40,409 bases of DNA from Planctomycetota bacterium (GTDB lineage: Bacteria > Planctomycetota > Planctomycetia > Gemmatales > Gemmataceae). The stretch covers positions 1 through 40,409 of the forward strand of contig VGYC01000052.1 in the NCBI GenBank assembly GCA_016873095.1, read 5' to 3'. How positions within the stretch are numbered: the first letter of the stretch is position 1; each line of letters starts with the position of its first letter. Shown here piece after piece: positions 16,429 to 19,449 of the stretch. The notes below the pieces were generated by a model that worked only from the letters and a program-made list of their open reading frames with translations, was not told the origin of the DNA and searched no databases. The translations under genes and the position numbers were made by a program.

Positions 16429-16504
16429 GTGGGAAAACCGGAGGGGAAAACCGCAGGAGGGGAAAACCGCAGGAGGGGAAAACCGCAGGAGGGGAAAACC
16501 GCAG
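16429..16504. repeat. 16-bp tandem repeat, four perfect copies plus a partial one
   Basis: The unit GAGGGGAAAACCGCAG occurs four times without a mismatch at 16441-16456, 16457-16472, 16473-16488 and 16489-16504, preceded by a 12-nt degenerate copy at 16429-16440. It lies in the 495-bp gap between the kinase start and the CFA synthase start, upstream of both genes. The rest of that gap shows no other gene. Confidence 0.9.
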
Positions 16505-16729: not shown

Positions 16730-18028
16730 GTGGCCACCGCGCAGAAGACGATGGATCCGCAGGTCGAGGCGCAGCTTCGGCTGTTTCAGGAGATGGCCGA
16801 CGGCTACGAGCCGCGCGACTTCGCGGTGCGGATGTGGGACGGCACCACCTGGGAACCCGCGTCGGGGCAGCCGGCCAGCTTCACGCTCATCCTCAATCAT
16901 CCGGGGTCGCTGCGCAAGATGTTCTGGCCGCCGCGACCGCTCACCACGGGCATGGCCTACATCTACGACGATTTCAACGTGGAAGGGGACCTGGTTTCCT
17001 TCTGCTTCTTCTGCCGGCATCTCACCGATCTCAAGACACGCTCATCGCTGTGGCGGCGGCTGCGGTTGGGCTGGCGGCTGTGGAACCTGCCGCGCGTCGA
17101 ACGGCCACGCACTGGCCGGCAGGCGGCACAGATGTCCGGGCAAGTGCATTCCATCGAACGCGATCGCGCCGCCATTCTCTACCACTACGACACTTCCAAT
17201 GAGTTCTTCGAGAAGGCCCTGGGGCCGCGCGTCGTCTACACCAGCGGCGTCTGGGACAACCCCGACGAGGACCTGGAGACTGCACAGACGCGCAAGCTCG
17301 ATTACCTGTTCCGCAAGCTGCGCTTGAAGCCCGGCGAGCGACTGCTCGATATCGGCTGCGGCTGGGGCGCCCCGCTCATCCACGCCGTCAAGAACTACGG
17401 CGCCATCGGGCACGGCGTGACGCTGAGCAACAAGCAGGCCGAGTGGGCCCGTATCAAGGTCCGGCAGGCCGGCATCGAGGAGCGCTGCAAGATCGAGGTC
17501 CGCGACTATCGCGAGCTCGACGAGCGCGAGCCGTTCGACAAGATCGTGATGATGGAGGTGGGCGAGCACTTCGGGGCCGACCAGTTCGAGGGCTACTTCA
17601 AGAAGTGCTTCGACCTGCTGAGGCCGGGCGGGGCCTTGATGATCCAGCAGATCACGCTGTTCGGCCACGCCGGCATGCCGGCCGCCCGCGAATTCAGTCA
17701 GCACTATGTCTTCCCGGACGGCGAGCTGGTCCCCGTCAGCCTGCTGTGCCGCGACGCCGAGAAGGCGGGCTTCGACGTCCGCGACGTGGAGAGCATCCGC
17801 GAGCACTATCCGCTCGCGCTCAAGCACTGGCTGGCCAACGTCGAGGCCAACCACGACGAGCTGGTGCGCATCACCGACGAGGCGACCTATCGTACCTTCC
17901 GCCTGTATTTCGCCGGCGCCCGCTTCGGTTTCCTCACCAATGTCTACAACCTGCACCATCTCCTCGTCGTCAAGCCGGACAACTGCGACAGCGGCATGCC
18001 GCTGAGCCGCCGCGACTGGTATGCGTAG
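16730..18028 (+). CDS. cfa: Cyclopropane-fatty-acyl-phospholipid synthase family methyltransferase
   Basis: This SAM-dependent enzyme adds a methylene (or methyl) group to unsaturated acyl chains of membrane phospholipids. The 432-aa product shows YTSGVWDNP (the family's YSCGYW-like block), the SAM loop RLLDIGCGWGAP, GHGVTLSNKQAEWAR, IVMMEVGEHFG and HYVFPDGEL, in the usual order. The length fits the family. A GTG at 16730 preceded by AAGGAGA with 5-nt spacing is chosen; a TTG 14 codons upstream is less likely. A remnant of a second copy lies 800 bp downstream. The exact product (cyclopropane versus other methylated fatty acid) cannot be told from sequence. Confidence 0.92.
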   Translation: MATAQKTMDPQVEAQLRLFQEMADGYEPRDFAVRMWDGTTWEPASGQPASFTLILNHPGSLRKMFWPPRPLTTGMAYIYDDFNVEGDLVSFCFFCRHLTDLKTRSSLWRRLRLGWRLWNLPRVERPRTGRQAAQMSGQVHSIERDRAAILYHYDTSNEFFEKALGPRVVYTSGVWDNPDEDLETAQTRKLDYLFRKLRLKPGERLLDIGCGWGAPLIHAVKNYGAIGHGVTLSNKQAEWARIKVRQAGIEERCKIEVRDYRELDEREPFDKIVMMEVGEHFGADQFEGYFKKCFDLLRPGGALMIQQITLFGHAGMPAAREFSQHYVFPDGELVPVSLLCRDAEKAGFDVRDVESIREHYPLALKHWLANVEANHDELVRITDEATYRTFRLYFAGARFGFLTNVYNLHHLLVVKPDNCDSGMPLSRRDWYA

Positions 18029-18306
18029 GAGCGGCTGAAAGAATCAAACCACGGATCAAACGGATAACACGAATAGAGAATACAAAGAGTTTTCCAATCC
18101 GTGCTATTCGTACTTACAAACGTTCGATTTTGTCGCAGCGCGCCAGGAATTCCCAACGCTGGATTGAAGTCCTGCTTTGCACCGCGAAGACGCGAAGAGC
18201 GTCAAGAGATCCAAGTCGATGTTTCTTGGCGCCCTTTGCGTCTTCGCGGTGCGCTCTTTCTCGCACAACAAGGTCTGGAACGCGCGCAGATGTTTTAAGA
18301 CGTTGA
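17897..18306. repeat. First copy of a ~400-bp direct duplication
   Basis: The last ~43 codons of the CFA synthase gene plus about 275 bp downstream are repeated at 18703-19109, offset 804-806 bp, with scattered substitutions and 1-2 nt indels. The non-coding part contains an ACGGAT-type repeat stretch and a long hairpin (18180-18251). Confidence 0.85.
18180..18251. repeat. Imperfect 28-bp-arm hairpin (CGCGAAGACGCGAAG family), copy 1
   Basis: The arm starting CACCGCGAAGACGCGAAG at 18180 pairs with the arm ending GCGTCTTCGCGGTG at 18251, with a few mismatches. It sits about 150 bp past the cfa stop. The same element recurs in the duplicated segment, and closely related sequences are, as far as I know, common intergenic repeats in several phyla. 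Confidence 0.7.
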
Positions 18307-18540
18307 CTGTTTGTGGGTTGCGACGAACAGTTCGCGTTCTTCGCGCTGGCGATAAACCAGAAAATCCCTGGTCCACAAAATCATGAAAATCATGACCGCG
18401 AACTCAAGGCCATCAGTGACCGGCGGCAAGTACGTCACGAGACTTTCCTGGCTACCCACAACATCCGGGAGAAACAACCCGAAAAAAACAATCGGGGCCA
18501 GCGCCAAAGCCAACCGTTGTATCTGTCGTTTGCAGGTCAT
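18295..18540 (-). CDS. Possible small membrane protein, 81 aa
   Basis: This short open frame lies on the minus strand between the two copies of the duplication. It predicts two hydrophobic segments, LALALAPIVFFGLFLP (about 10-25) and FAVMIFMILW (about 47-56), and a charged C-terminus (YRQREERELF). Composition looks more like coding than the neighbouring spacer, but no family is recognised and no strong ribosome site is seen. Its last four codons lie in the duplicated sequence. It may be a remnant or chance open frame. Confidence 0.4.
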   Translation of the reverse strand: MTCKRQIQRLALALAPIVFFGLFLPDVVGSQESLVTYLPPVTDGLEFAVMIFMILWTRDFLVYRQREERELFVATHKQSTS

Positions 18541-18702
18541 GCCGTAAGTCTATCCGAAGTTTTTAGCCTTCTCCAGCGAATTCGCGGAACAGGCCGTAAC
18601 CCCGACTGCCTGTCTCGGCTCTCGTTGAAGCATGCCGCCACTGGAAGTGGACAACCCCCGATTACAACCCAGTAGCGAGTGGTATTGAAGCATGCCGCAT
18701 CC

Positions 18703-18834
18703 TTTCGCCTGTATTTCGCCGGCGCCCGCTTCGGCTTCCTCACCAATGTCTACAACCTGCACCATCTTCTGGTGGTGAAGCCCGACAACTGCGACAGCGG
18801 CATGCCGCTGAGCCGCCGCGACTGGTATGCGTGA
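18703..18834 (+). pseudogene. Remnant 3' end of a second CFA synthase gene
   Basis: The segment encodes RLYFAGARFGFLTNV through SRRDWYA and a stop, identical in protein to the C-terminus of the CFA synthase at 16730-18028. All nucleotide differences in this stretch are silent: Gly GGT/GGC, Leu CTC/CTT and CTC/CTG, two Val GTC/GTG, Pro CCG/CCC; the stop changes from TAG to TGA. Silent-only divergence implies that the second copy was once a working gene before most of it was lost. Nothing upstream (18541-18700) resembles the rest of the gene. Confidence 0.85.
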
Positions 18835-18983
18835 GAGCGGCTCAAAGAATCAAATTACGGATCAAGCGGATCACACGGATAGAGAATACAAAGAGTTTTC
18901 CAATCCGGGTATCCGTACTACAAACGTTCGATTCTGTCGCGGCGCGCCAGGAATTCCCCACGCTGGATTGAGGTCCTGCTTTG

Positions 18984-19055
18984 CACCGCGAAGACGCGAA
19001 GAGCGCCAAGAGATCCAAGTCGATGTTTCTTGGCGCCCTTTGCGTCTTCGCGGCG
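18984..19055. repeat. CGCGAAGACGCGAAG-family hairpin, copy 2
   Basis: Same element as at 18180-18251, again about 150 bp after the cfa stop-equivalent. The left arm carries GCGCCAAGA where copy 1 has GCGTCAAGA, which improves pairing with the right arm's TCTTGGCGC. This may be compensatory or chance. Confidence 0.7.
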
Positions 19056-19209
19056 CGCTCTTTCTCGCACAACAAGGTCTGGAACGCGCGCAGATGTGGT
19101 AAGACGCTGCCTGCAACTCTGGCGGGTGAAGGGGGCCTCAATGACTGTGCGCGTGTACTACTCCTCGAGTGATTTCTTTGCAGCGTGCAAAGATTTCATG
19201 GCGATTCGA

Positions 19210-19311
19210 ACCACGGATTTCACGGATGGCACGGATAAAGAAGACAGGGCTAGCGGACGATTGACTGGCTTCTTGATTTCTTGATCCGTGGCCATCCGTG
19301 AAATCCGTGGT
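19210..19311. repeat. ACGGATTTCACGGAT-family inverted repeat
   Basis: A 27-nt arm (19210-19236, ACCACGGATTTCACGGAT and onward) pairs with a 28-nt arm at 19284-19311 (ending GAAATCCGTGGT), with a single extra G as the only difference; the loop is about 47 nt. It lies in the gap between the cfa duplication and the cyclophilin stop. The remainder of 18835-19449 contains only repeats and no supported gene. Confidence 0.8.
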
Positions 19312-19449
19312 CGCCTTGTCTTACGCATCTTCCTGATCGTAGTTGCGGCTCGGCCGCGCTATGCAATACTCGCAGGCGCAACGCAATCGATCGCCACGTT
19401 GCCCAGCGATCTTGAGAACTTACGTCTCGATCAGCCGTACAAGGATACA

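Follow-up and report, generated by a model that had tools for sequence, protein, structure and literature searches.

A silently diverged second copy of the 3′ end of cfa in a planctomycete genome

Elements such as the phages in icd leave unrelated DNA flanked on each side by a 3′ gene end, the two ends being protein identical but silently different. Homology-facilitated illegitimate recombination (PMC3240628) and partial duplications made by transformation (PMC3784515) have also been documented in bacteria. Here, we describe a locus in a genome of the family Gemmataceae (Planctomycetota) in which the 3′ end of cfa is present twice. As in the merodiploids and the products of homology-facilitated illegitimate recombination described before (PMC3784515, PMC3240628), part of a gene is directly repeated, with one homologous and one nonhomologous side; in those systems, however, the event was observed directly and involved a known donor, while here it has to be read from one contig. 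The icd-type integrations share with this locus a protein-identical but silently different 3′ end found twice around unrelated DNA, although the cfa site differs from them in that it has no integrase, that the insert is tiny, and that the homology continues well past the gene. All positions refer to the window, that is, the whole stretch of DNA analyzed (40,409 nucleotides), and the features are collected in Table 1.

Table 1. Positions of the features at the cfa locus
Feature	Position	Strand	Remarks
Intact cfa, cyclopropane-fatty-acyl-phospholipid synthase, CMAS family	16730..18028	+	Start set at GTG 16730
Repeat copy 1	17895..18309	+	Last 43 cfa codons with the stop, then 281 bp downstream
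Dispersed hairpin element in copy 1	18170..18262	unassigned	Fold -56.1 kcal/mol, z -9.1
ORF of 81 codons	18295..18540	-	Two hydrophobic stretches; no homologue found
Unique stretch between the copies	18310..18700		391 bp; G+C 53%
14-bp word TTGAAGCATGCCGC	18625..18698		Twice, 60 bp apart; second ends 2 bp before copy 2
Repeat copy 2, cfa 3′ end remnant	18701..19113	+	Codons 18703-18834, stop TGA, and 279 bp downstream
Hairpin element in copy 2	18974..19066		Loop shortened as in copy 1; fold -54.9 kcal/mol, z -7.9

The intact gene and its repeated 3′ end

The open frame of the intact gene begins at TTG 16688, while the alignments with orthologues begin at 16730. Its product matched the Pfam family CMAS (PF02353) across the whole catalytic domain (E value of 8.5e-76, profile positions 3 to 272 of 273), which identifies it as a member; the CfaB-type NCBIfam model gave an E value of 1.3e-83, yet under its curated cutoff. 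The remnant corresponds to the last 43 codons of this gene and, devoid of the methyltransferase domain, it cannot function as an enzyme. Orthologue alignment yielded 28 loci, the nearest at 54 to 62% identity (59 to 62% for the three closest), and a scan of named genomes with the protein alone detected no relatives. By its nearest named relatives, the present genome belongs to the planctomycetes. In the collection searched, the genus of the present genome consists of one genome. Within the genome itself, paralogues of cfa are located on contigs C85 (49% identity), C45 (44%), and C53 (34%), the first two of them (C85:338-1600 and C45:229-1482; L098 and L099) less than 400 bp from the contig start. 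Between a large minus-strand frame and cfa, a tandem array of about four copies of the 16-bp unit GGAGGGGAAAACCGCA occupies positions 16440 to 16503. The first ca. 97 bases of the window recur at 97 to 100% identity in ten or more further contigs, in many cases close to the contig end, so that the contig begins inside a multicopy element.

Base-by-base alignment showed that positions 17895 to 18309 recur in direct orientation at 18701 to 19113, with 93 to 95% identity and a spacing of 804 to 806 bp. The repeat consists of two blocks, 17895-18101/18701-18907 (93% identity, spacing of 806 bp) and 18115-18309/18919-19113 (95% identity, spacing of 804 bp), and exact words common to both copies reach 49 bases. 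Given that no second repeat of equal size and identity exists within the 40-kb window, this one is not due to chance; copy 2 is a homologous direct copy of part of the neighboring gene, with which it shares ancestry. The initial annotation had reported that the last ca. 43 codons of cfa plus ca. 275 bp are repeated 804 to 806 bp downstream, as the alignment bears out, and that unrelated sequence lies between the copies, which is also the case, but at 18310 to 18700 (ca. 391 bp) rather than at the proposed 18307 to 18702.

Downstream of the stop codons, the two copies differ by 18 substitutions and two single-base gaps over 279 aligned intergenic bases, a divergence of 6.5%. Both flanks include a hairpin, which in copy 1 is possibly the cfa terminator, belonging to a family with arms of ca. 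29 bp (GCACCGCGAAGACGCGAAGAGCGCCAAGA...) that is represented in the genome by at least a dozen members (contigs C3, C115, C165, C39, C270, C99, C56, C4, C212, and C6). The shortened loop common to copies 1 and 2 was absent from the 11 other genomic copies aligned; therefore, both descend from one stretch and not from two insertions. On the same grounds, the shared 3′ flank was judged not to stem from a dispersed repeat inserted independently at each site, since only the hairpin is dispersed and the loop deletion is present in both copies. Compared to the rest of the family, derived bases are found at 18168 and 18202 in copy 1 and at the site matching 18250 in copy 2, so change occurred in both lineages. 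Matches of the hairpins to microRNA models were weak, far under the gathering scores, and were discarded; a literature search for interspersed palindromes in planctomycetes found nothing. A second dispersed element lies farther downstream (19141 to 19389), with copies of about 150 to 235 bp that are 84 to 97% identical on contigs C105, C185, C347, C186, C4, and C13, and it holds a very stable inverted repeat (19204 to 19314, z -12.5).

Probable protein-level constraint on both stretches

The 43 shared codons have identical translations and seven differences, all of them at third positions and silent (17899, 17929, 17962, 17965, 17968, 17971, and 17977 in the coordinates of copy 1), while the stop codon is TAG in copy 1 and TGA in copy 2. 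Of the silent changes, five are clustered within a run of six codons (P = 0.004 under random placement) and may represent a single event. As donors of this cluster, the C85 and C45 paralogues were considered and rejected, as their bases do not match.

How strongly this pattern speaks for constraint depends on the null chosen, with P values from about 3e-5 to 0.06. If both copies had been free to drift, seven silent changes out of seven would have a P value of 3e-5 to 2e-4, according to the transition rate. Along similar lines, changes were concentrated at third codon positions compared to positions 1 and 2 (Fisher P = 3e-4), and the latter had changed less than the intergenic DNA (P = 0.01). 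With the remnant free throughout and only the upstream gene constrained, P was 0.001 to 0.002 when all seven events were counted and about 0.05 when the cluster was counted once (three events); by the intergenic clock, the chance of zero change at positions 1 and 2 on a free copy was about 0.06. The seven-of-seven silent differences thus indicate protein-level constraint on both stretches, less strongly if the cluster is taken as a single event, and judging from the codons, it is likely, if not overwhelmingly so, that during most of their divergence both stretches encoded protein.

The claim of the initial annotation that all sense differences are silent was confirmed by the alignment, and the count that it proposed between the copies gave seven synonymous and no nonsynonymous differences in 43 codons. 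Its conclusion that both copies were under protein-level selection probably holds for most of the divergence, but this does not require two genes in one genome, because two alleles in sister lineages yield the same pattern.

Origin of the remnant and of the DNA that precedes it

The stretch between the copies has no second copy in the genome and no match in plasmids, and it is unlike both the region upstream of cfa and the rest of the window. The ORF that overlaps it gave nothing above the cutoff in Pfam, PHROGs, or NCBIfam and no match with a credible E value across 95 genomes of the family, and it may not be a gene. The only exact matches to TTGAAGCATGCCGC in the genome are the two sites listed in Table 1. 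No integrase, mobility-gene, or phage family of Pfam or PHROGs matched the open frames of the insert. At its downstream end, the joint at 18700/18701 lies outside any word common to both copies.

An integrative element that entered the 3′ end of cfa, restored the gene with its own silent variant, and then decayed, leaving the 391 bp behind, would explain why a protein-identical, silently different 3′ end flanks unrelated DNA on both sides. We consider this very improbable, given an insert of only 391 bp with no second copy and no integrase or phage family match, and a duplicated stretch that extends 280 bp beyond the stop. Even less credence is given to the idea that small pieces of DNA recurrently enter the cfa 3′ end and its hairpin, each restoring the end of the gene through a silent variant of its own, with the orphan 81-codon membrane-protein frame as cargo.

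The reading that we favor, tentatively and at slightly less than an even chance, is that the downstream piece is the dead 3′ end remnant of another version of cfa that had diverged from the intact one, the two being alleles of sister lineages that later recombined. In this scenario, each of the sister lineages would have kept a single functional cfa under ordinary purifying selection while the two versions diverged. Transfer of DNA from one lineage to the other would then have been followed by recombination with homology at one end and an illegitimate joint at the other, or alternatively by a single crossover involving a small molecule; the recipient would have been left with an intact cfa, 391 bp of unrelated DNA, and a surplus 3′ end together with the hairpin that follows it. 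The repeat, its silent-only differences, the common ancestry of the copies, the changes in both of them, and the unrelated joint at 18700/18701 are observed, whereas divergence in different genomes and the type of recombination are inferred. No function is evident for the remnant.

Several observations support this reading. The seven-of-seven silent differences and the two intact stop codons are what two selected alleles predict. The unique 391 bp before the joint, which comes neither from the body of cfa nor from its upstream region, is not predicted by a plain tandem duplication. Relatives carry a single cfa at the locus. Finally, 14 intergenic sites have G/C in copy 2 and A/T in copy 1 against 2 with the reverse (P = 0.004), an imbalance that supports separate genomes because copies within one genome share a mutation spectrum; this hint of different genomic backgrounds was seen post hoc and is missing from the few coding changes.

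A tandem duplication of the whole gene within the genome, with two working copies that diverged under selection until the second recently lost its first ca. 390 codons and acquired unrelated DNA in their place, is possible but less probable. The silent-only differences, the direct orientation and close spacing, and the common ancestry of the flanking hairpins all agree with it, and the paralogues on C85, C45, and C53 indicate that the lineage tolerates several cfa genes. Nevertheless, the intact tandem pair assumed by the initial annotation found no support: the three nearest orthologue loci (59 to 62% identity) and about 30 further loci, all distant, have a single cfa, the DNA that follows copy 1 differs from the cfa upstream region, and the genome contains no other fragment of a second copy at comparable identity. 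Neither an intact pair in these distant relatives nor repeated upstream DNA at the joint was found. Since these relatives are too distant and even the nearest orthologues lack conserved synteny, they speak neither for nor against an older pair in the genus. In addition, a plain tandem duplication leaves upstream DNA between the copies, so a further replacement step is needed, the pair must have evaded conversion and loss until the intergenic DNA had diverged by 6.5%, and the breakage must be recent enough for zero codon decay. Divergence as sister-lineage alleles followed by recombination is preferred because it explains the same data in fewer steps.

We also examined whether the contig could be an assembly artifact that joins two strains of a metagenome, each of which contributed one version of the cfa 3′ end. 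Nearly all named relatives are metagenome assembled, the present genome (8.36 Mb) is in 548 contigs with 3.3% contamination, and the copies diverge at about the strain level, with identical words as long as 49 bases. However, such a chimera is unlikely because the joint is in no common word and the ca. 31 kb of the contig tested has no second version at 90 to 97% identity in the bin, barring short dispersed repeats; the 391 bp is also single copy in the genome.

Against recombination between sister-lineage alleles, it counts that no donor genome is known, with the genus being a single genome in the collection, that a long-lived tandem pair with recent loss yields the same codon pattern, and that documented illegitimate events of this type occur only rarely (in E. 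coli conjugation, at 3e-10 per recipient cell [PMC3240628]).

The cfa remnant is genuine but unremarkable, a recombination scar that belongs to the known class of partial gene copies. It also carries a caution, namely, that silent-only differences between a gene and a remnant show that both were once coding and not that two genes existed in one genome. If the copy 2 allele were found in a sister lineage, the scar would be the trace of a recombination event in a planctomycete genus for which sampling is poor.
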